From a virus, in the IMG/VR virus record IMGVR_UViG_3300010413_000071, positions 1 to 42,152 of that record: a stretch of 42,152 bases of DNA; one strand, written 5' to 3'. The notes below the pieces were generated by a model. That model saw only the letters and a list, made by a program, of their open reading frames with translations. It made no database searches and was not told where the DNA came from. Shown here in pieces: positions 1 through 16,737 of the stretch. Numbering within the stretch: the stretch's first letter is position 1; the number at the start of each line of letters is the position of its first letter. Position numbers and translations under genes: made by a program.

Positions 1-114
1 TTTTTTCTTCTCATGGTCTAAAGCCAATAATGCAACTAAAATAATTCCAAAACCACTCAACACATACCAAATGTTTTTCTTTAACCAGGCCCAAATTTTA
101 TTTAGAGTTTCCAT
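1..114 (-). CDS. small membrane protein, lysis module (partial, 3' end outside window)
   Basis: The frame opens with ATG at 112-114 and stays open to base 1, giving 38 codons with no stop, so the gene continues outside the window. It starts METLNKIWAW, then has a hydrophobic span at about residues 15-32 (IWYVLSGFGIILVALLAL) followed by a charged tail (DHEKKK). Its start overlaps the last 17 bases of the holin-like gene in another reading frame, so the two are probably translationally coupled. One N-terminal membrane span followed by a charged region next to a holin candidate fits an inner-membrane spanin or a holin accessory protein, but the diagnostic part is missing. The membrane-anchored start is seen; the lysis role is inferred from position. 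Confidence 0.6.
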   Translation of the reverse strand, partial: METLNKIWAWLKKNIWYVLSGFGIILVALLALDHEKKK

Positions 115-475
115 TTGTTGTATCCCTCGGCAATGACAATTCTATATCATATTTTTTCTTTACCCATTGTTTTACTATATTAAATCCTATAATTGATATT
201 CCAGCACAACCCATGAAATACCAAATTTTATGAGCCGTTGCAACAACCCCTGGCGAAGTTTCACCGGGCCAGGTAAGACCAGTAATAACACCTAGAAATA
301 AAATTATAATTGGAAAAGTTCTACGCAACCAAAAAATTGCCTTTGTCTTTTTTGCCAATTCTTTTGTGAATATTCTTGTTTTTAACGTTTGAGCAATTAT
401 CCACATCACAATAATAAACATTATTCCAGGCCAATGTGGCCAACAAAAATCCCAAATCTCTTTCAATGTTTCCAT
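98..475 (-). CDS. holin-like three-span membrane protein
   Basis: This 125-residue protein has three hydrophobic stretches at about residues 14-31, 52-71 and 85-103, separated by basic loops, and a hydrophilic tail. The ATG at 473-475 is preceded by AGGAG with about 8 bases spacing. Small three-span proteins with an early HWPGI motif and a Gly/Pro-containing central loop are common in phage genomes and are usually annotated as putative class I holins, which permeabilise the inner membrane for endolysin release. It sits directly after the terminator that ends the structural block and overlaps a second membrane protein gene, as in a lysis cassette. No endolysin is visible in the window, so the role rests on topology and context. 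Confidence 0.6.
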   Translation of the reverse strand: METLKEIWDFCWPHWPGIMFIIVMWIIAQTLKTRIFTKELAKKTKAIFWLRRTFPIIILFLGVITGLTWPGETSPGVVATAHKIWYFMGCAGISIIGFNIVKQWVKKKYDIELSLPRDTTNGNSK

Positions 476-589: not shown

Positions 590-982
590 CTATGCCGTAG
601 TAGGCTTAAATGAGAGTGTCATAGACACGCCATCCACAGCAGGTGTATCTCCAGCTGCATAGGCAGTCAACGTACATCCATCTGCGTCTATACCGGCAAG
701 AACCGTTTGTGGAAGACGCATGGTAAGTCTGCGCAGTGCTGGAGGAACACCACCAGAAAGCACTTGGCTACCGAAGAATACCAATTCATCTGCCTCGGAA
801 ACAGCACCAGCCTGCCATCCTGGAGTAGTGTTATTCCAGTAGTAATTGTCAGACAAACGCTGTACTTTTAACCTGTACGTCAAAGCCTTTGCAGTCTCCA
901 ACTGAAGCTTCCCGGAAAGACTAATATCAATTCCAGCCTGTGAAGATCCTGCAAACATATCGTAACCCATTCTCAGAGTCAT
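590..982 (-). CDS. hypothetical protein, probable tail/virion component (130 aa)
   Basis: The product is 130 residues and is not recognised. It begins MTLRMGYDMF, is rich in Gly, Ala, Thr and Leu, and its alternating pattern suggests mostly beta strands. There is no signal peptide or membrane span. The ATG at 980-982 follows AGAAAGGA at suitable distance. It is the last gene before the terminator at 498-542 and follows the His-repeat gene by 18 bases, so the two are probably co-transcribed from the promoter at 3075-3103. A structural or tail-tip role is inferred only from position. It could be a partner of the repeat protein. Confidence 0.75.
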   Translation of the reverse strand: MTLRMGYDMFAGSSQAGIDISLSGKLQLETAKALTYRLKVQRLSDNYYWNNTTPGWQAGAVSEADELVFFGSQVLSGGVPPALRRLTMRLPQTVLAGIDADGCTLTAYAAGDTPAVDGVSMTLSFKPTTA

Positions 983-1000: not shown

Positions 1001-3016
1001 TTACTGACTAGCAACAATGGCACATGCATTCATGGCAGTCACCATGTGAGTATTTATATCAGTTTTCAATTCGTTGGTCATAGTTACCATATCCGCCAAT
1101 TCAGCAGTATCATTGGTAGAAATAGCATTGCTACTATCAGCAGTAGTATGCTCACTAGAACCAACCATCACACGATGTGCCTCATACTGAGTCTTGATGT
1201 CATTGGTCAATATCAATGCAGTCTCCAGATCAGTGGCATCAGCAGCAGTAACATCATTCGTCGAATCGGCAGCACCATGAACACTTCCGGCAATCAAAAC
1301 ACGATGTGCTTCATAAGCCGTTTTCAATGCATTCGCCAAAGCAATTGCTGTTGCCACAGTAGTAGCATCGGCTGCGGAAACAACATTCGTCGAATCGGCA
1401 GCACCATGAACACCAGTCAAAACTCTGTGCAAATTGTAATCTGCCTTTAATTCATTTGCCAATGTAAATGCAGAAGCCTGGTCTGTAGCATCAGCAGCAG
1501 CAATTGTATTTGATGCATCGTTAGAAGTATGCACAGTTGCCTGAGTCAAGTGTGCCGTGTAATCAGTTTTAATCTCATTAACAAATGTAATCAATTGAGC
1601 CAATGTGGTAGCGGGATCTTCAGATATAGTATTTACAGTATCATTCACAGGATGAATACCAGCCTCAATTCTATGCGCTTCGTAATCAGTAGACAATTCA
1701 TTTGCAAGAGCAATTGCAGTATCCAAATCAGATGCATTGGCAGAAGAAACGGTATTGGTACCGTCTGGAAGAGTATGAGTATTTTCAAGCGCAATATGCA
1801 AATTGTAGGCTGCTTTGATGGCATTCGCCAGAGCTTCAGCAGTAGACAAATCAGATGCATCGGACGTAGTAATAGTATGTGTTGTATCAAAAGTAGTATG
1901 AATTCCAAGTTGGATTAAATGGGCATTAAAATCTGCCTTGATTTCATTTGCAAGTGTTATAGAAGTTGGAAGATCAGTTCCATCCGGAGATGTTACAATA
2001 TTTACAGAATCATTTACTGGATGCACAGTGGCTTGTGTACGATGTGCGTTGTAATCTGCTTTGATCTCATTCAAAAGAGTTTCAGTACTAGCTAAATCTG
2101 TTGCATTAGCTGAAGTTACATCATTGGTTCCATCTGCATTATCATGACATGCACCCAGGGCTATATGCAAACCGTAATCAGTTTTGATTTCATTTAATAG
2201 TGTATACAATGAAGCAAGATCAGTAGCATCGGCAGACGAGATAACATTTGCACTATCGTCCGTTGTATGCACAGTACCCTGTGTACGATGTGCATTAAAA
2301 TCAGCCTTGATTTCGTTTGCTAAATCGAGCAAATCAGTTTCCAAATTACCATCAGCAGCAGAAACAGTATTGGTTGTATCATTATTGTCATGTACTGTTG
2401 CCTGAGTTCTATGGGCATTGTAATCTGATTTTAACTCGTTCAAAAGTGTAACCAGGGTATCACGAGTAGTTGCGTTAGCAGAAGTAACAGCATTAGTAGC
2501 ATCTGCAACATTGTGAACGTCAGCAGTAGCACGATGGAGATTGTAATCTGTTTTTAACTCATTCAGAAGAGTATAAAAAGCGCCTTGATTTACTGTGGCT
2601 GTAATAGTAACGGCCACATTATTGAGGTGAACACCAGATTGAGAATCATGAGCCTCCACATCCGTTTTCAACTCAGTCATCAATGCAACAGCAGTCGCAT
2701 GCGTGCTGGCATCAGCAGCAGAGACAGTATTGGTTGCATCGGCGGCAAGGTGGGCACCCTCAACACCAGTTGATGCAATATGATCAGTATACCTTGCTTT
2801 AATCTCATTCAGAAGCGTATTAATTTCATCAATATCAGCTGTACAATTAGCACCTCCAATACGTTCGGTAGCTATACGATGTGGAACCGTAGTAGCACCA
2901 GCAACAGCCTGTGTGGCATCTTCCCTAAGATCTCGCAAAAACTGCCAAAGCTTTTCAGCCGCCTTTCCACTTGCGGCTATTTGCATGGCATCCAATTTAC
3001 TGAAGCCTCGTCCCAT
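1001..3016 (-). CDS. His-rich tandem-repeat virion protein (671 aa, fourteen ~41-residue repeats)
   Basis: A short N-terminal region (about 60 residues, starting MGRGFSKLDAMQ) is followed by fourteen tandem repeats of about 41 residues and a fifteenth partial copy at the C-terminus. Each repeat has an amphipathic helix of the type L-x-N-E-(I/L)-K-x-D-Y-x-x-H, then a second His six to nine residues later, then (13 of 14 copies) an Asp four residues after that, then a T-N-x-V-(S/T)-x-A-x-A-(S/T) segment. The ATG at 3014-3016 is chosen because GGAGGT lies just upstream; a longer frame opens with TTG at 3055, but that start overlaps a hairpin and lacks such a site. A sigma70-like promoter and a palindrome lie upstream. 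I do not recognise a characterised family. The regular His/His/Asp pattern suggests metal binding or an elongated fibre, which is inference. Confidence 0.85.
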   Translation of the reverse strand: MGRGFSKLDAMQIAASGKAAEKLWQFLRDLREDATQAVAGATTVPHRIATERIGGANCTADIDEINTLLNEIKARYTDHIASTGVEGAHLAADATNTVSAADASTHATAVALMTELKTDVEAHDSQSGVHLNNVAVTITATVNQGAFYTLLNELKTDYNLHRATADVHNVADATNAVTSANATTRDTLVTLLNELKSDYNAHRTQATVHDNNDTTNTVSAADGNLETDLLDLANEIKADFNAHRTQGTVHTTDDSANVISSADATDLASLYTLLNEIKTDYGLHIALGACHDNADGTNDVTSANATDLASTETLLNEIKADYNAHRTQATVHPVNDSVNIVTSPDGTDLPTSITLANEIKADFNAHLIQLGIHTTFDTTHTITTSDASDLSTAEALANAIKAAYNLHIALENTHTLPDGTNTVSSANASDLDTAIALANELSTDYEAHRIEAGIHPVNDTVNTISEDPATTLAQLITFVNEIKTDYTAHLTQATVHTSNDASNTIAAADATDQASAFTLANELKADYNLHRVLTGVHGAADSTNVVSAADATTVATAIALANALKTAYEAHRVLIAGSVHGAADSTNDVTAADATDLETALILTNDIKTQYEAHRVMVGSSEHTTADSSNAISTNDTAELADMVTMTNELKTDINTHMVTAMNACAIVASQ
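1106..2839 (-). repeat. fourteen in-frame ~123-bp coding repeats
   Basis: The repeats encode units of 38-45 residues, mostly 41. They are diverged at DNA level but keep the order helix, His, second His, Asp, TN-x-V, with a partial fifteenth unit at 1004-1105 that keeps only the first His. The H-to-H gap is six residues in most copies, eight in the last two full copies and nine in the first. The length variants sit at the ends of the array, which fits copying from the middle by unequal recombination. Confidence 0.9.
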
Positions 3017-3022
3017 CTGGGC

Positions 3023-3055
3023 ACCTCCTTTCGCTCCGTTTCTAACCCGGAGCAA
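3023..3055 (-). promoter_or_regulatory. 5' leader hairpin and strong ribosome binding site of the His-repeat gene
   Basis: The leader forms TTGCTCCG (3055-3048) paired with CGGAGCGA (3038-3031), eight base pairs including one wobble around a nine-base loop, immediately upstream of AGGAGGT (3029-3023). The site is 6 bases before the ATG at 3016. The hairpin leaves the Shine-Dalgarno exposed, a layout that can stabilise an mRNA or keep the start open. It also argues against use of the TTG at 3055, which would lie inside the stem. Confidence 0.6.
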
Positions 3056-3179: not shown

Positions 3180-3875
3180 TTAGGGTATCTTTTCTATTTC
3201 GATGTGAGAATAGACTTCTGCTCTTCCAGAAGCATTAACTGCCATACCAAGACCAATACTAGCAACACCAAAAGAAATATAATGCCGTAATTTATATGCT
3301 GTTTCTACCGTAGCAGTAAAATATCCACTTACCTTATTGAGTAAAATAAGTCTACAAGGGTAAACAACATCAAGATCATATAGAATAAAATTTTGGCCCT
3401 TAACAACAATAGTATTATCAGATTTGCAAAAATCCAAATAGGAAGTTCGCATAGTAGCTGTAACTGAATCATAATATACTGGAGCCACAGCATCAATTCT
3501 GTAATTACCCACTGGTAAAGTTATTTGATTACTAGATAATGACGCTCCAGTAATAGTATTTACACGAGTAGTATTTAATACTCGATCATTAAAACCAGTA
3601 GAAGATGCACCGCCTTGTGTTCCCTGGGATTTTTCGTCATCCACTATTATTATTTCTTTAGTATAGGTAGAAGCAACTATAAGATCTTCTAGGGTATCAA
3701 CAATTTCATCCAAATAAGCTTTTACATAAGTTGCTATCCCATTTGACTGAGCATTAATTGCATCATATGAATCTCTAATATCTAATGAATCATCTATTTT
3801 ACCAATTAGCTCTTTAACAATTGCCCATGCGAGACCTTTTTTTCTTCTCGCATCACCACCTATTAATTCTGCCAT
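3180..3875 (-). CDS. tail fibre/tail-tip protein with receptor-binding-type C-terminal domain (231 aa)
   Basis: The N-terminal half (about residues 1-75) is helical and charged, beginning MAELIGGDARRKKG. After a Gly/Ser-rich linker the C-terminal half (about 110-231) has the pattern ITLPVGNYRI-D-A-VAPVYY, a central beta region, then a basic 'KLRHYISFG' stretch and a final I-E-I-E-K-I-P. This closely resembles the small beta-sandwich domain at the tips of many prophage tail fibres, where the motif LPAGTYRI-x-ASAPAY is typical. The role would be contact with the host surface. It lies 9 bases after the 827-residue fibre gene and just before the gap carrying the promoter at 3075-3103. The family resemblance is from recall; the receptor role is inferred. 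Confidence 0.7.
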   Translation of the reverse strand: MAELIGGDARRKKGLAWAIVKELIGKIDDSLDIRDSYDAINAQSNGIATYVKAYLDEIVDTLEDLIVASTYTKEIIIVDDEKSQGTQGGASSTGFNDRVLNTTRVNTITGASLSSNQITLPVGNYRIDAVAPVYYDSVTATMRTSYLDFCKSDNTIVVKGQNFILYDLDVVYPCRLILLNKVSGYFTATVETAYKLRHYISFGVASIGLGMAVNASGRAEVYSHIEIEKIP

Positions 3876-3884
3876 TGTAATACC

Positions 3885-6368
3885 TTATGATGTTAGATGT
3901 GCAATACCAAATGCAGCAATTTTTATGTCGATTACGGCATTTGTTTTATTCTGACAGTCTAATGTTGTAGAATAGTATACATTAATTTTTGCCTCTGTAT
4001 CTACTGTATGGCTAAATTCACTACTATCACCACTAACTAACTCTGTAACACCATTGCTATAAAAAAACATAGCAGAATTAGTAGTATTCATATTTCTAAC
4101 TAAAACAATTGCTGGAGAAACAATAGAGTTTATATGATTTATTTCTTCATCTGCAACATCAATAAGATGATAAGCTAAATTTGTAGACCCTGTATTTTCT
4201 CCCCATCTATGTACAGCAAATGGATACCATTCGTCCATATCCCAATCCGCTTGTTCATAACCAGCAGAACTAGGAACGTAATAAAAAATAATTTCATCTT
4301 TTTCTATTCGCAATGCCAATCCATTTTCCTGATCATCTTGCATTGCAAATTCTTTGCCGCCATCAGTGTTGTATTCTATATTACAAAAAATCCATAGTGT
4401 ATTATCCTGATAGCAAACTTGAGCAGTTATTGTTCCACCAAAAGATTCAAGAAATTTTCGTACTACATTACCACTTAAATTAGCACCTCTAATTCTGGAC
4501 AATTCATTATTTAATAGATTGATTAAACCTACACTACCTCCAGATGCAGAAAGGTCAATCATATCTATTGTATTGCCAAATTCTACCGGTTTATAAAATT
4601 TTTCCTGTGCTGTTCCATCAAATACATCTTCAATTACATGATAGTTTCCCCAACCAGTTGCATCATCTAATGTATCAATTGCTGTACCACCTGTTGCAAC
4701 ATTTTTGCTGGCGAATAAAATTTGTCTAGGATTTTCGTCTATAACACCTAAAACCATAACTTCAACATTAGTTCCAGAACCGGCCTTAACAACACCAGAA
4801 TCAATATAACCACCAACAACTAACAAGTACCCAGCATCCATAAAATAAATTGATATTGTATTTGCTGTTACATTTGCATCTTCACGTATATCATGAGACC
4901 TCCAAAGCAAAGTCCAATCAGACGGAGACCTCTCATCAACAACTAGTTTGTTCAAAAAATCTACAAGTGTATCTAAACCACCTTGAAGTGTTTTAGAACC
5001 TGTCCAGTAAAAACGATCATATTCCGGGGTACCCGATGTTCCTTCATTTCCTATGTGAATATTATCAGAATGTGTTTGGATATTAAGTACACTAAGTGGG
5101 TCACCAGTGTACTCATCATGCATTGGATTTCCAGCTGTATTCCGCATTGCGGCTCTAACATAAATAGTACCTGTAAAATCAGTATCAACAGTATTTGTAA
5201 AATCCAAATAAATATATGGGTCAACAACATAACCGTCTGCAATATCTCCTGTATCTATTTGGTGATCATCAGTACTATCGTATAAAGCAGAAACAATTAT
5301 AGCCCTATTGTCAGAACCCATAAGCGGTGTTCCATCTCCATCAGCGTATAGAGTAAAAAACCTAGTCTCATCATTTGCAGCTGTTCCAACAAACCATTTA
5401 GTACTATCAGAACTAAGTTGAAATTTAATTGCAGAAGATAAACCAGAAACAACTTGCAAAATTGGAACAGGAGAATCAGCACTACAAAAACTACTATAAG
5501 AATACAATGTATTCCAAGTATTTGTTATTTTAGATGCTGTAATTGTAGCATCACTATCTGGACGTTCCAATGTTGCCAATTGCATATATCTAACACCAAA
5601 ACTATGCCTATCAGGAGTACTCGGTGTAGTATCATCTTCAGCAACCCTAACACACCATCGTCTCTGCCTTCTATGGCATGTCTCTATACCCAAACTCACA
5701 TTTACTATACCCGTATCTTCATTTTCATTTATATCTTCCCACCAAACCATTACATATACTTCATCAGTTCTATCCGATCCTGAAGGAGTTGTTAAAACTG
5801 GTGGTTTTATAATATATGTATCATCAACACCAATACTTCCTGTTCCACCAGAAAGTGTTACTTGAGTAGTACTATCTCTAACTGTAATAGTGAATGAATT
5901 ACCACTTTCAGCACCAGATGTCATTTTTATACGACATCCAACTAAATCGTGAAATGTTTGCCAATTTTGATTGGCATCTGAAAGTTTTCCACCAGCTACA
6001 CCAGTAACAATACCTTCACCCATAATATTTGTGTCATCTTCATAATCATGGCTTCCGGGAGGATACTCCATTATTGTTGGGACTAATACTCCTTCAACTA
6101 CTGCCCATCCACCCCAAATTTGAAAATTGTTGGAAGTAGGAGTACCAGCAGTTATAAAATATCCAGGAGTACTGCTATCCGGTAGAGCAGGTAAACGACC
6201 CCTACCAAACATATAATGATTCTGTAAAATTGATGCTAATTGTAAAATATCACCTTGTTCATTCCAATCAGAATCAAGGATAGGCACACCTTGTTGCAGC
6301 CTTAAAGAATCATACAATTTATTTACTTGAAGTGTATCTGCACTTACATTTGGAATATTTCCTGCCAT
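3885..6368 (-). CDS. large tail fibre/tail-tip protein, 'SDWNEQ' N-terminus (827 aa)
   Basis: The N-terminus contains L-R-L-Q-Q-G-V-P-I-L-D-S-D-W-N-E-Q, a pattern seen in a family of long phage and phage-like surface proteins (domains annotated as DUF6519-like). Residues about 119-190 form a beta module (GIVTGVAGGKLSD ... DTYIIKP) that also occurs in two neighbouring fibre genes. The rest is beta-rich, with many Asp, Thr and Gly residues and no membrane span. The ATG follows GGAGAAATAAAA. It lies 11 bases after the lectin/gpI-like gene. A baseplate-distal fibre or wedge-attached adhesin is likely. The domain naming is from recall. Confidence 0.75.
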   Translation of the reverse strand: MAGNIPNVSADTLQVNKLYDSLRLQQGVPILDSDWNEQGDILQLASILQNHYMFGRGRLPALPDSSTPGYFITAGTPTSNNFQIWGGWAVVEGVLVPTIMEYPPGSHDYEDDTNIMGEGIVTGVAGGKLSDANQNWQTFHDLVGCRIKMTSGAESGNSFTITVRDSTTQVTLSGGTGSIGVDDTYIIKPPVLTTPSGSDRTDEVYVMVWWEDINENEDTGIVNVSLGIETCHRRQRRWCVRVAEDDTTPSTPDRHSFGVRYMQLATLERPDSDATITASKITNTWNTLYSYSSFCSADSPVPILQVVSGLSSAIKFQLSSDSTKWFVGTAANDETRFFTLYADGDGTPLMGSDNRAIIVSALYDSTDDHQIDTGDIADGYVVDPYIYLDFTNTVDTDFTGTIYVRAAMRNTAGNPMHDEYTGDPLSVLNIQTHSDNIHIGNEGTSGTPEYDRFYWTGSKTLQGGLDTLVDFLNKLVVDERSPSDWTLLWRSHDIREDANVTANTISIYFMDAGYLLVVGGYIDSGVVKAGSGTNVEVMVLGVIDENPRQILFASKNVATGGTAIDTLDDATGWGNYHVIEDVFDGTAQEKFYKPVEFGNTIDMIDLSASGGSVGLINLLNNELSRIRGANLSGNVVRKFLESFGGTITAQVCYQDNTLWIFCNIEYNTDGGKEFAMQDDQENGLALRIEKDEIIFYYVPSSAGYEQADWDMDEWYPFAVHRWGENTGSTNLAYHLIDVADEEINHINSIVSPAIVLVRNMNTTNSAMFFYSNGVTELVSGDSSEFSHTVDTEAKINVYYSTTLDCQNKTNAVIDIKIAAFGIAHLTS

Positions 6369-6379
6369 TTTTATTTCTC

Positions 6380-8803
6380 CTAACTAGAATCTGGTTCTAG
6401 TATTATTTCTACCGTTGCATAACTATTTTTCAAGTAATTTTCTACTAATTCTTCACATCTTTTCATAATAGAATTAGTTAAATCTGTTGATATTCCATCT
6501 AAGTATTCTAAAAATATTCCTAACCCTGTCAAACTATGCCAGCCATTTGCATCTTGAGTATATTTCAAAATATCATCGCGTTTACCGCGCTTTTCAAATA
6601 CCTCATCAATATCAGGCTGTGTTGACAAATCAGGGGTAACTGAATCATAAATTCCATTTGAAAAGAATATGTACTTCCATCCCTCAACCACATGTGGGTC
6701 CCAGTCTGTAGTGTTCCCCAGCGCTGTTTCATAGGCCCCTGTCCTGCCTATGCCATACTTGTATAGGGCAACAGCAGCAGCAGTCTCTACACGCTTGTGG
6801 AGGCCATTAGATGCTAACCATGTAGGCCATCCCAGTTTCCTATCAATATAAGGAAGCAAATCTTCATGCACTTCCCAAATATCAAAAAGTGTTAATATCT
6901 GTTCGCAATCTGTTTTTATATTGTCAAGAATGGCACCAAAAATGGAGGTAAAATCTTCCAAATCTCCACCAGCATCCGCATCGGCAGTTCTCCATCCATT
7001 AGGAAGTGATTTGAATAAATAATCTCCTAAACCCCAACGCTCATATGGATAGGCAGAACTTCTGCTTGTATCCGGATTATTCTCCCAAATACCTAAATAA
7101 TTCCTTGCAAATAATGAATAGTAATACCAAACGCCTGCGGCCAAATTGGATTCTTCAATTTCCTGCCATTCCCCGGTGGCGTATGGATTACATACGTCAC
7201 TAAATGTTGCATATGCCGTTGTATCATCATCTAAGTACGGATATTCACCTTGCTTTCTAAGTATCTTTATCCCGCCATTCCATGGGTATGGTTCCAAAGT
7301 AACATCATCAAATTCACAATATCCAGAAGAACCAATTATACAATAAAATTTTAGAGTAGTTCCATCAGCAGTGATTATTGCAGAAAATTTTTGCCACTCT
7401 GTAGACGTTGTACCTGTCCAATGTGTAGTAGAACCACTATCTACTCTTGGTTGACCAGACCCATCACTTCTCGCCCAACCGATTAATCTATACTGTTCTC
7501 CATCAGTTAAAATATCATCCTGGTATCCATACGGATTTGCCGTACCATTATAGGTAACACGCAAACATCGAGTACCACCATGGGGAGTACCTGTCTGCTT
7601 AACAACAATAGCAGAATTACCAGCATTCCAAAAAGTAACTCCACTTTGTTCCATATCCCCATCTTTAAGAACACCAGTTATCTCTTTACAACTAACATTA
7701 TCAAATTCACAATATTCCGTACCAGTTGAGGTAACAGCTTTAAGTACTAACCAATCTTGATCAGCAAAAAATGTAACATCAAAATATTGCCACTCTGTAG
7801 ACGTTGTACCAGTCCAAAATATAGTATTGTCTGTGCCAACACCCGGAGTAGCATTTCCATCACTGCGAACCATACCTGTGGCATGATACCGCTTTCCAGT
7901 ATCCAAAGGATTCTGGTACGCATATGGGTCATTTACTCCGTTTCTTGCCACTCTCAAGCAACGTACACCACCATGCGGACTATCCGTCTGTTTAGATAAT
8001 GTCGCAGAATTCCCAGCTGACCAAGAACTAGTACTTGCAGACTCCATATCATTATCTGCAAGAAGCTCTGAACTTAAAATACTAGGAGGAGCAAAAAATG
8101 TTATCTTGTTTGCATAGCCAATACTTAAAGCTTTTGCCTCAAGCTGAAAATCATATAGCTCATCAGGAGCTATAGGGTCTACAAATATGTCATATTCCAA
8201 TTCACAAAATACTCTAAAATGTTCTAGTGGTGTTAATTTCCTATTAAAAACCAAAAGCTTACTTAAAGTTGATTTAAAACGAGAAGTGCCAGTATACCTA
8301 TTCCCAATTACAACAGGAGCATCATCAACGGAAACCATACAACCAGCATTAAAATCTCCAACACTTTCGCCTTGAACAAATCCTTCGCAAATTTTAAAAT
8401 CCTCAAAATTTAATGCTACCATTGTATCATCTATTACATCAGTTGTAACAGTAGTTTGTGCTGTACCATCATAGAAACAAAGTTGAGTAGCATTAAGATA
8501 AAATTCATAATTTGTTCCGCCAGCATCCCTTTTGGAAATTAGCATCTCATCAGCAGTCATTGATACAATACCAGATTTGCACCAGGCAACAATTGTTCCT
8601 TTTATTAATTGAATACTTGTACTATCAGAAACAGTAATATTACTTGTACTAAGTGGAAATACAACACCATCATCAGCATATTCAACATCTGTATCTGAAC
8701 CATCATTACCAAATAATGACAAGTCTAAAGAATTTCCAAGAAGATAATTATGATATAATCGAATAGTACGATCATTAATACATTGTTGAATAAAACTTTC
8801 CAT
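6380..8803 (-). CDS. lectin-like / carbohydrate-binding-like / gpI-like tail protein fusion (807 aa)
   Basis: Domains in order: residues about 1-205 resemble a concanavalin/LamG lectin fold (ending 'LSKLLVFNRKLTPLEHFRVF', typical of LamG-like phage proteins); about 245-374 and 378-506 are two tandem copies of a CBM4/9-like jelly roll (motifs N-D-M-E-S / G-D-M-E-Q, H-G-G-x-R-C-L-R-V, WTGTTSTEWQ, E-F-D-(N/D)-V); about 510-600 is a linker domain; about 610-800 resembles the P2 gpI-type tail protein, with D-L-L-P-Y-I-D-R-K-L-G-W-P and a helix ending R-T-G-A-Y-E. gpI normally follows the J gene and links wedge to fibre; here it is 9 kb downstream and fused to sugar-binding-like domains. The start ATG overlaps the previous stop (TAATG). 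The domain calls are from pattern recognition. Confidence 0.8.
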   Translation of the reverse strand: MESFIQQCINDRTIRLYHNYLLGNSLDLSLFGNDGSDTDVEYADDGVVFPLSTSNITVSDSTSIQLIKGTIVAWCKSGIVSMTADEMLISKRDAGGTNYEFYLNATQLCFYDGTAQTTVTTDVIDDTMVALNFEDFKICEGFVQGESVGDFNAGCMVSVDDAPVVIGNRYTGTSRFKSTLSKLLVFNRKLTPLEHFRVFCELEYDIFVDPIAPDELYDFQLEAKALSIGYANKITFFAPPSILSSELLADNDMESASTSSWSAGNSATLSKQTDSPHGGVRCLRVARNGVNDPYAYQNPLDTGKRYHATGMVRSDGNATPGVGTDNTIFWTGTTSTEWQYFDVTFFADQDWLVLKAVTSTGTEYCEFDNVSCKEITGVLKDGDMEQSGVTFWNAGNSAIVVKQTGTPHGGTRCLRVTYNGTANPYGYQDDILTDGEQYRLIGWARSDGSGQPRVDSGSTTHWTGTTSTEWQKFSAIITADGTTLKFYCIIGSSGYCEFDDVTLEPYPWNGGIKILRKQGEYPYLDDDTTAYATFSDVCNPYATGEWQEIEESNLAAGVWYYYSLFARNYLGIWENNPDTSRSSAYPYERWGLGDYLFKSLPNGWRTADADAGGDLEDFTSIFGAILDNIKTDCEQILTLFDIWEVHEDLLPYIDRKLGWPTWLASNGLHKRVETAAAVALYKYGIGRTGAYETALGNTTDWDPHVVEGWKYIFFSNGIYDSVTPDLSTQPDIDEVFEKRGKRDDILKYTQDANGWHSLTGLGIFLEYLDGISTDLTNSIMKRCEELVENYLKNSYATVEIILEPDSS
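7286..8071 (-). repeat. tandem duplication of a carbohydrate-binding-like domain
   Basis: Two consecutive ~130-codon units (8071-7682 and 7672-7286) encode related domains. Short stretches are almost identical in DNA, for example those encoding the shared decapeptide WTGTTSTEWQ near 7790-7815 and 7400-7425. This indicates a fairly recent duplication or recombination within the gene. Confidence 0.75.
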
Positions 8804-11024: not shown

Positions 11025-13829
11025 CTATGCATATACCTGATCAGGATTCCTAATAACAGCAACAGTCATTCCGGCAATTGTAATATCAGAAGTAGTAATA
11101 AATGGTTGAATTGGAATAACACCAGAAACATTTCGTACTCTAATAACAACAGACCTGTTTGTAACAAATGTCAAAGTAACAGTTTCAGAACCAGGAGATA
11201 ATTCAGTTCCAGTATCCTCAATTACATTTATATAAGGAATAAAAAATGTATCTGAATCATCATAGTTTTGAACAAGAGAGTTTATCTCAAATCCATCACC
11301 AACTTCCCATGGAACAGCTGCTCCAGCGCCAGAATCAGCATGCATTATAGTAGTTGTTATTTGATTGGCACTATCCACACTTAAAACATATCCAACAGAA
11401 GCATCTGTTGTATTTCTAATAATATCTCCTCGTTCAACACCGCTGGCAAAAACACCAGTATCTACCAATGTTTGCCCACTGGTACCACCTTCGGCAGTAC
11501 CAGATACCTCTGTTGCCAAAGTAAGTTTACCATCATCACCATCACCACCAGTATTATCCCACGATGTATAACGGTATCTGTGCTCAACCTTTTCATCAGT
11601 AGCAACTACAACAACACAACCAGAAGATGGAGTATCATTTGGGAATCCTCCACCAGCAGCATTCTGTTCAAATGTAGAATCTGACTGTGAATTATTAGAA
11701 GCATGTCCAGTATATTGGTCCTTATCAGGAAGACCCGTTGAGCCATCCTCAAGATAAACTGCAATGTCATCACCAACACGAGTATTGGTAACGCTAACAT
11801 TTACAGAAGTATATGGCTCTCGCAAATTATTATTGTGGTCTGTAAGTTTTATATGATTAGCATCACCAGAAGCCATACCTTCCACCCATACACCACGGGC
11901 ACCAAACAAAACCCCACCTGCCAAAGAACCAAATGGTGCATTTTTATTTGCAGAATATGCTGCTACTGCTTTGATGTAAGCCTGCCCCTGAATTTCAGTT
12001 ATAGAAGACCCATCAGAAGTATAAAACACATCTGTATCTCCATCCCGGCATCTAAATTGCATATATGCATAAACATCATCTAAATCTCGTCCAGTATTAT
12101 AGATCTCTCCACATTCGACAAAAACAGTATAATCATAAGCAGTCTGAAGCGGAAATGCAAATGTCTCTGTATTATCATCACTTAATCCAGAATCGCAATC
12201 CAGTGTCGCTCCGGAAAGATCTCCTGTAAATGTATCCGCATTATCTGGCTCATCGCTAGAGTCAACATTTGCAAGTGTAATACTCACCGCACTTGCTTTA
12301 ACTACAAAAGCAGCCGAAGACCCCGCATTCCATGTCACACGCTCTCCAGGAATAAATGTGCCACTTGGATTTGAACATGTACATGTTCCATTTATATGAA
12401 GAATAGATACATCAGAATATCCACTTATAAGAGTTACACTTGCTGCGCTTAAAGTAACATTCATGGTTCCTGCGCCATCAGCGGTAACAACATCATTATC
12501 AGCAAAATCCTTGTATAATGCATCTCTAGCAGTACCAGTAAAGTCAACAGAATCTATAGTTCCATGTGTATGATAAACCTGGAACAAGAGCTTACCAGAG
12601 GAACCATCATCCTGATAAGACCGCAAAATACGAGATGCCCCAGAAGTACCACCGCTAAAAACTTTTCCTAAATCTCCACCCGCAGGGCCAGTACTTTCGG
12701 CGTCATATGTAACAAATGTATCACCAATAGACCCATTCACGTTAGCTGTAGTGTCACTAGTTCCAACGTAGATATTATCATTATCGGCAGGTGTACCTCT
12801 CAAACCACGTAACACAAGAACGCCCGTGGCAGTATCCCAGGCTGTATGAGAGACAACCTCTGCATACCACGTAGGAGGAGTGCCAGAATCCGTTGCAGTA
12901 TCTTGGATAATATTTCCTGCGGATATGGATGGCGACGTTCCACCATCGTAAAACATATAATATTCACCTTTTGTAATATTAACTGTATCGGATGCTGTTT
13001 CAGTAGCTATTGGTGTTCTCGTACCACTTGCAGTACTTACTTGTCCTTCAGTATGGGTAAAAGTATCTCCGGTTTGACGCACAAAAACTTTAATGTTTCC
13101 ACTATCAATAGCAACACCACCAAGTTTGACTGGAATGAGAATATCAATAGAACCACGATCCCAATTAGTAAATGCAGACCATTCAGCTATACGTGTAGAA
13201 ATACCAGTATCAGGATGTACTTGAAATATATAAACCTGTGGGTCCGGGGTACCAGCAAAAGATGCAATGGTATAGATATTGGCATAAACTTCGTTGCCAT
13301 TAATAGAATCTCCATTAGCAGTACCAGCCCCGGTACCTCCAGAAACAGCAATAGTACTGCTGTCGGCAATTGTAGCAGGTGTACCTCGTGTATCTCTTAC
13401 CCAAACTCTATTATGGTCTGCTGTCCCTCCATAATTATTTATATACGCAAGAACAGGACCAACAGGAGTTGCATCGTCGGTAAGATTTAATCCTTTATCA
13501 CCAGCAACAAAATCTGCACCAATAGTATCAACATCCAAAATATAAACAGGGTCAGCTACAGTATCATAATTTTCAGTATCTATGGAACCACCAGTCAAAT
13601 ATTGAAGAATATTTGATCCATCTCCATTATCCAAAAACCATCCATTTAACATAGTATATGATGTTGGAGTATTATATTTAAGTGGATTTTGGTAGCTCAT
13701 GTATGCTGGCTCATCAAATGTATCCATAAGCCAACTATACCAATCTGCTACACTATAGACAGTAGTACCAGAACTATGCCGAATTACTTTTGATGATGTA
13801 TCAATTGTGAAATCGTCACCAATAGACAT
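11025..13829 (-). CDS. large tail fibre protein (934 aa)
   Basis: The longest fibre-type gene here. It starts MSIGDDFTIDTSSKVIRHSS, is rich in Gly, Thr, Asp and Ser, and has no membrane span. Residues about 776-851 are the shared beta module (SGTAEGGTSGQTLVD ... WEVGDGFEINS). The C-terminal 50 residues (F-V-T-N-R-S-V-V-I-R-V-R-N-V-S-G ... NPDQVYA) resemble the end of the 886-residue upstream protein, which closes with a similar R-V-R-K and Q-P-D-I-V-A. The ATG follows AGGAGG at 10 bases. The N-terminal 'YSVADWYSWLMDTFDEP' region resembles repeated trimerising segments of other phage fibres. An adsorption role is inferred. Confidence 0.75.
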   Translation of the reverse strand: MSIGDDFTIDTSSKVIRHSSGTTVYSVADWYSWLMDTFDEPAYMSYQNPLKYNTPTSYTMLNGWFLDNGDGSNILQYLTGGSIDTENYDTVADPVYILDVDTIGADFVAGDKGLNLTDDATPVGPVLAYINNYGGTADHNRVWVRDTRGTPATIADSSTIAVSGGTGAGTANGDSINGNEVYANIYTIASFAGTPDPQVYIFQVHPDTGISTRIAEWSAFTNWDRGSIDILIPVKLGGVAIDSGNIKVFVRQTGDTFTHTEGQVSTASGTRTPIATETASDTVNITKGEYYMFYDGGTSPSISAGNIIQDTATDSGTPPTWYAEVVSHTAWDTATGVLVLRGLRGTPADNDNIYVGTSDTTANVNGSIGDTFVTYDAESTGPAGGDLGKVFSGGTSGASRILRSYQDDGSSGKLLFQVYHTHGTIDSVDFTGTARDALYKDFADNDVVTADGAGTMNVTLSAASVTLISGYSDVSILHINGTCTCSNPSGTFIPGERVTWNAGSSAAFVVKASAVSITLANVDSSDEPDNADTFTGDLSGATLDCDSGLSDDNTETFAFPLQTAYDYTVFVECGEIYNTGRDLDDVYAYMQFRCRDGDTDVFYTSDGSSITEIQGQAYIKAVAAYSANKNAPFGSLAGGVLFGARGVWVEGMASGDANHIKLTDHNNNLREPYTSVNVSVTNTRVGDDIAVYLEDGSTGLPDKDQYTGHASNNSQSDSTFEQNAAGGGFPNDTPSSGCVVVVATDEKVEHRYRYTSWDNTGGDGDDGKLTLATEVSGTAEGGTSGQTLVDTGVFASGVERGDIIRNTTDASVGYVLSVDSANQITTTIMHADSGAGAAVPWEVGDGFEINSLVQNYDDSDTFFIPYINVIEDTGTELSPGSETVTLTFVTNRSVVIRVRNVSGVIPIQPFITTSDITIAGMTVAVIRNPDQVYA

Positions 13830-14076: not shown

Positions 14077-16737
14077 TTATGCTACAATGTCTGGCTGTTG
14101 TGAAACGTACATATTAACTTCTTCAGATGTTACCACAGCTTGACTATCAAACGGTATATATTTTGGACTAGCAGAGCTTTTTCTTACTCTAACCAAAATG
14201 TTAGTTCCATTATCAACCCCTTCGGCAACATATTGTACTGTTGAACTAGCAGCTGTTCCATTATCAAGAACTTCAGAAGTATCTAAATTGTAGATCCAAT
14301 ATTCTGATCCAACAACAACATTAGTTAAAGTAATTGTTGCAACAGGCTGATCTATTGCGTACAAATTATTCTGCTGGTCAGTAAGCGTAGTTGTTGTATC
14401 AACCAAAAACAACGTCATGTCTGTCTGTGTTCCAGTAGCCGTGAGCTTAAATTTTAACTTGAAACCTTCTTCTATATCACCACTAATACCGGTCCAATTT
14501 CCAGCAGTTCTGGCATTTAACCAAGACCCATTCCAGTCACCATCAAAAAGTTTATACTGAAATTCAACTGTAACATTTGACCATTCATCATCATTCCAGT
14601 TACTTGTACCTATAGTTGCCGTGTATGTTCCAGAAAAACCAGTATGCCCCTTACACCAATATCCTTGCTCTATTTCGAGTATATCACCGGATACCATATC
14701 CAATGTTCCATCCCGCATAAATTTTGGATTACCAGCTAAAACAGTAGTTTCATCACAACTAGAACTAGGTGTAATCATTATTATTCCGACAACACCAACT
14801 GTATTAGAGCGAAAACCATCATGTATATTATATCCGAACATAGCCGGATGGTATTCCTCCCATCCGGTATAACTTCCTGGAGTCCCGTTACCACCATGCA
14901 TACCTTTAAATCTAATGTCGTCTATACTATCCGGCTGTATTTTGCTATCATATTTACCACTGCAATTTTGTATTAAAACACTTCTACATGTGGTATCCAA
15001 TGTAACACATTCTTCAACAATACCATTATCTTTCCAACATCTTGCTATATCAACATCATAGCATAACCCACCAAGGCTTATAAGACTATTTGCGGAAGAT
15101 GCATGATCAATTTTTTCTCCAATCATACCTATGGCTCTTATCTTCACACTAAAACTATCATAAAGTCGTATTAATTCATTTCCTGATATTCCACCACCAA
15201 TCATGGATACCCCAGAAATATATCCATTATTAGCATTGCTTAAGTAGATAAATTCTTGCCCTGTTAATGTTCCTGCTGTTTCATCTTGAGTAGCTGATCC
15301 TATCGTATTGTTCAAAGTAAAATCACTCGACTGCTCGATCATTATTGGATTTTCCTGCCGTATATCATTGGCACACACAAAAATATTATTATCCATGGTT
15401 ATTCCAATGACTCGATACAGCCAATACGAATAGTTACCTACTGTAAACCACAATCCAGCACTTGGTTTACTTGAAATACAACCTGTAATTTCTACATCGA
15501 AACTGGTTTCTCCACCAATAACAATTGCATTATTTTCAGGCGCTATATTCATACAATCTGTCAATGTTGCGCCAAAAATATCATCTGTTACTGAAAAAGC
15601 ATTTTGCTGAGTAGGATCACCATGTCCATTCGGATCTTGCACGACAACGCAATGTGAAAATAATGCTTTCTGTTTAACCGCAGCACTGCCCATACACACA
15701 GTAGCTCCACAATATTCAGCAGAATATGCATAAGCACCTGTACAACCAAAAAATGCATTTCCAAAATTGCAAATACTGAATTCTATATCACCAGCAGATG
15801 TTGTTACAAGATTATACCAAGTTGTTTCATCATCAGATGTATTATAAGTATTACCACTTCCATAATTAGAAATATCAGAAGTACAAAAATGTACATTTGG
15901 TGCCCTTATATCACAACCACTAGGGGGTACAAATCCACCAGTTGACCCGGAAGCAGATCCTAATGTTAAATCTGTACTTTGGAAATCATGATCGAAAACA
16001 AATCCACCAACTCCATGATGAAAATATGAAATATAAGCTGTACCATTTGCTCTTGTATTTCCAAATTCTTGATATACACCAGATTCTTTTATATCTCCAG
16101 AACCACTATTCACATTAGCAGTCCATGAAATCTGATAGTCAGGACCATTATTATCTACGATTTTACGCACTTCTATAGCATCATCATCTGCTAAAGACCC
16201 TGTAAGAAATCTAACAACAAGATAAGTAGATTCTACCTGAACTATCCTTCCCATTACTGATAAATCTGAAGTTTTGTAAACCCAGTCGTCAACTTCTGGT
16301 GTAACCCCTGACGCATTATCAAAAGTTATTCTTCTTCCTGTTTCAATTTGGATCATCGGTATAGAATCAATGCAAAAATCACCATCCCAATAATCCGAAC
16401 CAGTAGCCGAAGACAAATCTATAACCTGTGAGTTAGACCCATCGGTTGTACCAATACTATACCAGTCTCCATTTACAGTTAATTTTCCACGCCCATTTAC
16501 ATTTATTTCTTCAGTTAATTCACCAACAAAATTAATTAAATTTCCAGAAGATATATTTTCACCGTCAATTTTTAACTCACCATCATTTATATCAATCTGA
16601 CCCATTAGAATAGATGGTGTTTGGGTACAAGTAACAATAGCGCCATTGTTAATTGTTAAATTATCACCATCAGTCATTGGTCCAGCAGCAATAGCTGCCT
16701 CTAATGTCATATTAGAAGTAGCAGTATAGTTAGCCAT
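14077..16737 (-). CDS. beta-helix tail fibre/tailspike-like protein (886 aa)
   Basis: After MANYTATSNMTLEAAIAAG the first ~100 residues show G-D-N-L-T-I-N-N-G-A strand repeats (for example D-G-E-L-K-I-D-G), as in polymer-type caps. Residues about 250-620 are rich in short strands with Asn, Gly, Ser and Cys turns (N-N-x-I, S-G-V-S-M-I-G-G-G), typical of a right-handed parallel beta-helix, the fold of many tailspikes. A C-terminal domain (about 690-886) has W-x-G-I-S-G-D-I-E-E-G-F-K-L-K-F-K and ends V-S-Q-Q-P-D-I-V-A, a common ending of phage head/tail fibre proteins. No catalytic residues can be assigned, so depolymerase activity is not claimed. It begins right after the stop of the membrane protein gene. 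Confidence 0.75.
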   Translation of the reverse strand: MANYTATSNMTLEAAIAAGPMTDGDNLTINNGAIVTCTQTPSILMGQIDINDGELKIDGENISSGNLINFVGELTEEINVNGRGKLTVNGDWYSIGTTDGSNSQVIDLSSATGSDYWDGDFCIDSIPMIQIETGRRITFDNASGVTPEVDDWVYKTSDLSVMGRIVQVESTYLVVRFLTGSLADDDAIEVRKIVDNNGPDYQISWTANVNSGSGDIKESGVYQEFGNTRANGTAYISYFHHGVGGFVFDHDFQSTDLTLGSASGSTGGFVPPSGCDIRAPNVHFCTSDISNYGSGNTYNTSDDETTWYNLVTTSAGDIEFSICNFGNAFFGCTGAYAYSAEYCGATVCMGSAAVKQKALFSHCVVVQDPNGHGDPTQQNAFSVTDDIFGATLTDCMNIAPENNAIVIGGETSFDVEITGCISSKPSAGLWFTVGNYSYWLYRVIGITMDNNIFVCANDIRQENPIMIEQSSDFTLNNTIGSATQDETAGTLTGQEFIYLSNANNGYISGVSMIGGGISGNELIRLYDSFSVKIRAIGMIGEKIDHASSANSLISLGGLCYDVDIARCWKDNGIVEECVTLDTTCRSVLIQNCSGKYDSKIQPDSIDDIRFKGMHGGNGTPGSYTGWEEYHPAMFGYNIHDGFRSNTVGVVGIIMITPSSSCDETTVLAGNPKFMRDGTLDMVSGDILEIEQGYWCKGHTGFSGTYTATIGTSNWNDDEWSNVTVEFQYKLFDGDWNGSWLNARTAGNWTGISGDIEEGFKLKFKLTATGTQTDMTLFLVDTTTTLTDQQNNLYAIDQPVATITLTNVVVGSEYWIYNLDTSEVLDNGTAASSTVQYVAEGVDNGTNILVRVRKSSASPKYIPFDSQAVVTSEEVNMYVSQQPDIVA

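Follow-up and report, generated by a model that had tools for sequence, protein, structure and literature searches.

Histidine-paired repeats of a putative phage tail protein group into three-helix modules that may each be clasped by a metal ion

The window (the whole 42,152-nucleotide stretch of viral DNA analysed here, IMG/VR record IMGVR_UViG_3300010413_000071) belongs to a contractile-tailed phage, with terminase, portal, sheath, tape measure, hub and baseplate genes, and encodes a 671-residue repeat protein (Table 1). We are confident that the natural unit of this protein is a three-helix module rather than the single 41-residue repeat, its 15 helices forming five modules of ~123 residues (5 × 3), a grouping in threes that the initial annotation of this DNA had overlooked. 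We lean, modestly, towards reading the whole as five pseudo-trimers in a row, each made within one chain and clasped by a metal, in what is likely an accessory protein of the tail. Its reading frame opens at an ATG at position 3016, read from the sequence; the program-made open reading frame, with a TTG start, is 13 residues longer than the 671-residue reading. Module 1 corresponds to the entire repeat part of the one-module orthologue L011, and the N-terminal segment ahead of it, whose conservation was too low for a profile scan, is likely the attachment part.

Table 1. Positions of the repeat protein, its parts and its neighbouring genes in the window
Feature	Positions	Strand	Remarks
Membrane protein, holin-like by weak match	98..475	(-)	phrog_1129, E 0.067; syntenic
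130-residue gene, directly downstream of repeat gene	590..982	(-)	syntenic with repeat gene in six phages
Repeat protein	1001..3016	(-)	671 residues; short N-terminal segment, then five three-helix modules; 15 helices
Module 5, residues 535-662	1031..1414	(-)	H2 537, H1 571, H2 580, H1 614, H2 623, H1 657
Module 4, residues 412-533	1418..1783	(-)	H2 414, H1 448, H2 455, H1 489, H2 496, H1 530
Module 3, residues 289-410	1787..2152	(-)	H2 291, H1 325, H2 332, H1 366, H2 373, H1 407
Module 2, residues 166-287	2156..2521	(-)	H2 168, H1 202, H2 209, H1 243, H2 250, H1 284
Module 1, residues 44-164	2525..2887	(-)	H2 46, H1 79, H2 89, H1 123, H2 130, H1 161
N-terminal segment, residues 1-43	2888..3016	(-)	helical; conserved across six syntenic phage orthologues
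Ribosome binding site AGGAGG	3024..3029	(-)	7 bases upstream of ATG at 3016; direct sequence reading
Tail fibre protein, upstream of repeat gene	3180..3875	(-)	phrog_24210, E 6.5e-17
827-residue protein	3885..6368	(-)	first ~290 residues conserved in the same six phages, rest differs

The repeat part is made up of 14 full units and a last, incomplete one, with the consensus TxxTLxNEIKTDYNAHRxxxxVHxxxDxTNxVSxADATDLA and a spacing of 41 residues (38, 43 or 44 in a few). Naming the first histidine of a unit H1 and the second H2, we found H1 in 15/15 helices, that of the partial last unit included, and H2 in 14/14 full units, with six residues between the two in eleven units, eight in two and nine in one. 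An Asp stands four residues after H2 in 13 of the 14 full units, Val taking its place in unit 2. The initial annotation had counted the repeats, their invariant His pairs and the 13 Asp exactly, and had rightly described the surrounding residues as variable: between units, 40% of amino acids and 44% of third codon positions are identical, and His is encoded by either of its two codons, so that constraint, rather than chance or recent copying, lies behind the pattern. Related viral proteins follow it closely. With a profile that ended before H1, and was therefore blind to it, H1 was kept in 163/164 units; H2 was present in 137/140 non-terminal units, and 23 of the 26 units without it were the last helix of their run. 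The H1-to-H2 spacing was 7 in 115/137 units, Asp occupied H2+4 in 120/137, which makes it less conserved than H1 or H2, and Asn at H1−9 and Lys at H1−6 were likewise conserved across units. Homologues in which the His were freely replaced were looked for among these relatives and did not turn up, and the earlier suggestion that the His/His/Asp pattern is functional stands.

Scans of IMG/VR with repeat, module and single-repeat queries yielded 85 non-redundant carrier proteins, of which 49 had exactly three helices and a further 13 had 6, 9, 12, 15 or 21; thirteen small carriers had one repeat each. Apparent twos, fours, fives and a sixteen among these counts were reread by eye: L186, L072, L187, L157 and L136 each have three helices and L081 and L061 six, the L178 count was affected by a contig end cutting the protein, and L110 is a His-less coil. 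The single clear exception to the multiple-of-three rule after rereading was a protein of four helices in L050 (7965-8531) and L151, whose first helix resembles the single-repeat coiled-coil type; its four helices may be one plus three. Similarity was highest between repeats three apart in L009 (p 0.0002) and L021 (p 0.001), and lag 3 was also the most similar lag in the window protein, at a p of 0.17 that is non-significant alone. Independent of this test, and stronger, is one of phase, in which profiles for the first, second and third helix were built from one-module proteins only. The 15 helices of the window fell in phase abc five times over (score 36.4 vs 9.4 and −45.8; permutation p 0.005), and abc scored best in 11 of 13 multi-module proteins, L007 and L051 being the two that do not show it.

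Modelled by AlphaFold2 with 56 natural modules, module 2 of the window (residues 166-287) gave a confident three-helix domain (pLDDT 95.1, pTM 0.90), with helices at 23-41, 64-82 and 105-123, no predicted strands, and loops of ~22 residues that lack secondary structure yet were predicted with high confidence. The full-length protein, run with six sequences, was modelled poorly (pLDDT 51.9, pTM 0.32), too weakly to interpret, and this model speaks neither for nor against the long rod suggested in the initial annotation. Across 300 units, H1 lay 0.6 degrees off the hydrophobic (core) direction of the helix at 3.5 residues per turn, or 24 degrees if 3.6 residues per turn are assumed, core positions relative to H1 being −14, −11/−10, −7, −4/−3 and 0. 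There is strong support, then, for three helices per module in one compact domain, with H1 facing the core at the C-terminal end of each helix. We infer that the helices are parallel, because H2 comes only six residues after H1 and is thereby kept at the same end, because the ordered loop must then reach the start of the next helix, and because the repeats are equivalent and single-repeat relatives could bundle only as oligomers; six His would then converge within each module. The coiled trimer offered in the initial annotation is probably formed within a single chain, from three consecutive repeats and not from three subunits.

Each module needs one H2 beyond the two in its inner loops. In 25 runs this extra H2 precedes the first H1 by ~34 residues, and in 17 it follows the last H1 by 5-16 residues; 7 runs have it at both ends, some through unrelated His, and 4, under strict positional limits, at neither. 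N-terminal and C-terminal forms rarely coincide (Fisher p 4.6e-5), and this placement of a spare H2 at either end resembles, as far as sequence can tell, circular permutation. Since the extra H2 stands at one end or the other, the two ends of the chain would be equivalent in position, consistent with a closed three-fold arrangement whose His end holds both. That a module has three H1 and three H2, and that its chain ends are interchangeable, is well supported: three H2 are found if either chain end is counted, with some modules, as in L007, short of one or two, and with the N-terminal Asp absent in some.

Tail fibre genes lie on one side of the repeat gene and a holin-like gene on the other, and L008, L009, L011, L017 and L021 largely preserve the order carbohydrate-binding protein, 827-residue protein (w3885), fibre, repeat gene, 130-residue gene (w590), holin-like gene. 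At this syntenic site the repeat gene encodes 2, 7, 1, 1 and 5 modules, respectively, and 5 in the window. Elsewhere, insertions of the module occur in virion proteins of other kinds: major tail (L020, L036), tail tube (L025), baseplate (L022), and head-closure-like or internal (L045, L071). Gene context and relatives make it rather probable that the window protein is a tail-associated virion protein, lending indirect support to its earlier description as a virion protein. The best-supported function is that of a portable virion module, for structure or display, with length tuned in whole modules. Around this site, the 827-residue protein shows a pattern like that of an attachment domain with exchangeable host-facing parts; an 807-residue protein at 6380-8803 carries CBM_4_9 (E 9.5e-11) and laminin-G-like domains and has 300 C-terminal residues conserved among the syntenic phages; and the small gene beside the repeat gene occurs twice in L008 (8269-8640 and 10120-10488). 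Two large genes of the baseplate/fibre region, at 11025-13829 (934 residues) and 14077-16737 (886 residues), had no Pfam or PHROG match.

In the arrangement that we propose, a module would consist of three copies of an H2-x3-D-x2-N return segment followed by a 19-residue helix ending in H1, the helices lying parallel and the ordered segments of ~17 residues running back along the bundle. Six His would meet at one bundle end on a pseudo-threefold axis and bind one metal ion octahedrally, Fe most likely, with the Asp at H2+4 in the second shell, and this metal clasp would pin the bundle top. With both chain ends at the same end, the module could fit into loops of other virion proteins or be repeated in tandem, each added module extending reach or binding area; single-repeat relatives would probably form the same clasp as homotrimers, and the module may have arisen by intragenic triplication. 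By analogy with known systems, that the module binds metal of any kind is probable. That it holds a single six-His site, which would make five in the window protein, we regard as somewhat favoured; it is preferred over per-repeat sites because the phi11-like elements occur three times over and each helix brings two His. A metal role, as the initial annotation had suggested, is accordingly plausible in the light of the phi11 precedent, at one ion per three repeats rather than the one per repeat it had envisaged. A strict six-ligand site would poorly tolerate the modules that are short of one or two H2 or of the N-terminal Asp.

The precedent is the stem of the receptor-binding protein (RBP, gp45) of Staphylococcus phage phi11, where a three-helix coil holds Fe on its threefold axis, at the C-terminal end; His42 and His50 from each of the three chains are the ligands, and Gln54 (His50+4) belongs to the second shell (PMC4901313). 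The phi11 clasp is of the His-x7-His type, and the module would be its covalent version. Both have a polar side chain at the second His+4, Gln54 in phi11 RBP and Asp in the window repeats; the module also matches in having a three-helix domain with core-facing His ends, presumably parallel, and a second His 7 residues on from the first. The phi11 protein, however, is a homotrimer of separate chains with one site, whereas in the window protein the domain is built from three repeats within a single chain and the modules are repeated; the two have no detectable sequence relation, and metal is proven in phi11 only. HxH six-His iron sites occur in T4 gp37, P2 gpV and R-pyocin fibres (PMC6116203), which share with the window protein two His per chain or repeat; a three-fold, six-His octahedral site like theirs is what we propose for the module. 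T4 gp37-type fibres are three intertwined chains, whereas the window protein does not have the H-x-H motif of such needle fibres and carries H-x6-H on helices, in places x8 or x9. HxH itself is used by its relatives L088, L112 and L116, the three helices of L088 ending AHTH, AHGH and THYH, and two His per helix are found in nearly every His-bearing form.

An unannotated family of single-repeat phage coiled coils of ~75-125 residues (L098, L099, L101, L104, L108, L112 and L116) ends in H-x6-H (NAHxAAxxLHYxGT) or HxH (NAHTHTEN), and its members are possibly small trimeric head or tail fibres. The phrog_6994 head fibre (e.g. of Pseudomonas phage VCM), L098, L099 and L108 share with the window the helix signature ATDLPTALTLVNEIKTKLNA..., with one repeat per chain where the window has three; H-x6-H is kept in L098, L099 and L108, whereas the VCM phrog_6994 protein is without the His. 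The phrog_6994 profile matched the window protein at E 1e-5 over just 25 of its 67 residues. The head fibre gp8.5 of phage phi29, which has a beta-tulip base and a helix-turn-helix supercoil, gave no PDB sequence match and was absent among the Foldseek and VIA matches listed. Ig-like phage accessory domains are likewise small, self-contained modules found in many structural proteins, but they are beta sandwiches, whereas the module is all-helical, predicted without strands, and has conserved His pairs.

Nothing on single-chain pseudo-trimers in phages emerged from a literature search. Iron-clasped three-chain helical bundles are already known in phage receptor-binding proteins; a single-chain version would show how a trimeric fibre element is turned by phages into a portable domain, comparable to the Ig-like domains of virion proteins. 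We think it evenly balanced whether the carriers form an undescribed, widespread class in which a homotrimeric metal-clasped fibre segment, triplicated into one chain and made independent of oligomerisation, is plugged into tail-tube, major tail, baseplate and fibre proteins, can be permuted, and is lengthened by three-helix steps. If the proposal is true, each chain of the window protein would carry as many as five ions, which bears on the idea that phage tails bring iron into contact with hosts (PMC11705849), and the single-chain form would represent a natural, tunable scaffold, possibly iron-loaded.

Readings with one metal per repeat and with a trimeric rod were weighed and placed lower than the six-His module. 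Two His and one carboxylate are a common metal ligand set, and H1, H2 and the Asp co-occur per unit, as would be expected if a module held three separate two-His-one-Asp sites, with each repeat, or neighbouring repeats, keeping its own ion (Zn or Fe). H1, however, faces the bundle axis, where three H1 would meet; L007 units without H2 and Asp still keep H1; the Asp is conserved less than either His; and the HxH relatives, without such an Asp, better suit a shared site, leaving separate sites an unlikely arrangement. Similarly unlikely, in our judgement, is a module with no metal, in which hydrogen-bonded His-Asp clasps would act as helix caps and fasten the return loops, perhaps making a joint that responds to pH. 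Conserved polar residues near helix ends can be purely structural, and the conservation of Asn at H1−9 and Lys at H1−6 would agree with this, but retention of His at the level seen for H1, with no swaps to Asn, Gln or Arg, together with the HxH form, appears more typical of metal ligands than of residues that donate hydrogen bonds. Much less probable again is a His/Asp end that serves as a ligand-binding face, e.g. for cell-wall or capsule sugars, with copies multiplied for avidity: the gene has tail fibre genes around it and one for a carbohydrate-binding-domain protein close by, and module number ranges from 1 to 7 at the same locus, but the conserved H1 points in the core direction and is not exposed, and binding-site residues usually vary by host, which the repeat His and Asp do not. 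Hardly credible is a long homotrimeric rod, or a solenoid running through all 15 helices, with every repeat paired to its counterparts in two further chains and the threes meaningless. In its favour, the 41-residue spacing holds across module borders, single-repeat relatives would need oligomers and phage fibres are usually trimers; it is opposed by the multiples-of-three counts, by the abc phase of the window repeats, by the predicted independent folding of a three-repeat stretch (pTM 0.90), and by the presence of the module within tail-tube and major tail proteins, which are not trimers.

The initial annotation recognised no characterised family, and database searches agreed. PDB sequence searches with the whole protein and with repeat, module and single-repeat profiles gave no credible match, every match to the repeat region in Pfam-A and NCBIfam scans fell below the curated cut-off, and Pfam, NCBIfam and PHROGs matches to the repeat, being sub-threshold or partial, were set aside. 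Foldseek with the module model reached a best TM of 0.25 (PDB) and 0.38 (BFVD), with no E below 1, and the VIA fold search a best Z of 3.1; PDB sequence and fold searches found no relative with bound metal. A plasmid search returned no match, and 84,980 species genomes scanned with the whole window protein contained no relative; with the module alignment as query, the same genomes yielded three relatives only, in Methyloceanibacter, Polyangiaceae and Archaeoglobus MAGs. Matches among GenBank phages were few, and one of these phages, MW202476, carries the module. The proteins of L051 (3726-9734) and L178 (2-5392), from contigs of over 180 kb and 270 kb, are of ~2000 residues and have some 15 repeats, mostly in scattered threes. 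In L006 (723-1604) and L090 (7851-8669), many GDxNxDD-like motifs occur in a segment that comes after the module and resembles, by eye, calcium-binding dockerin-type loops.
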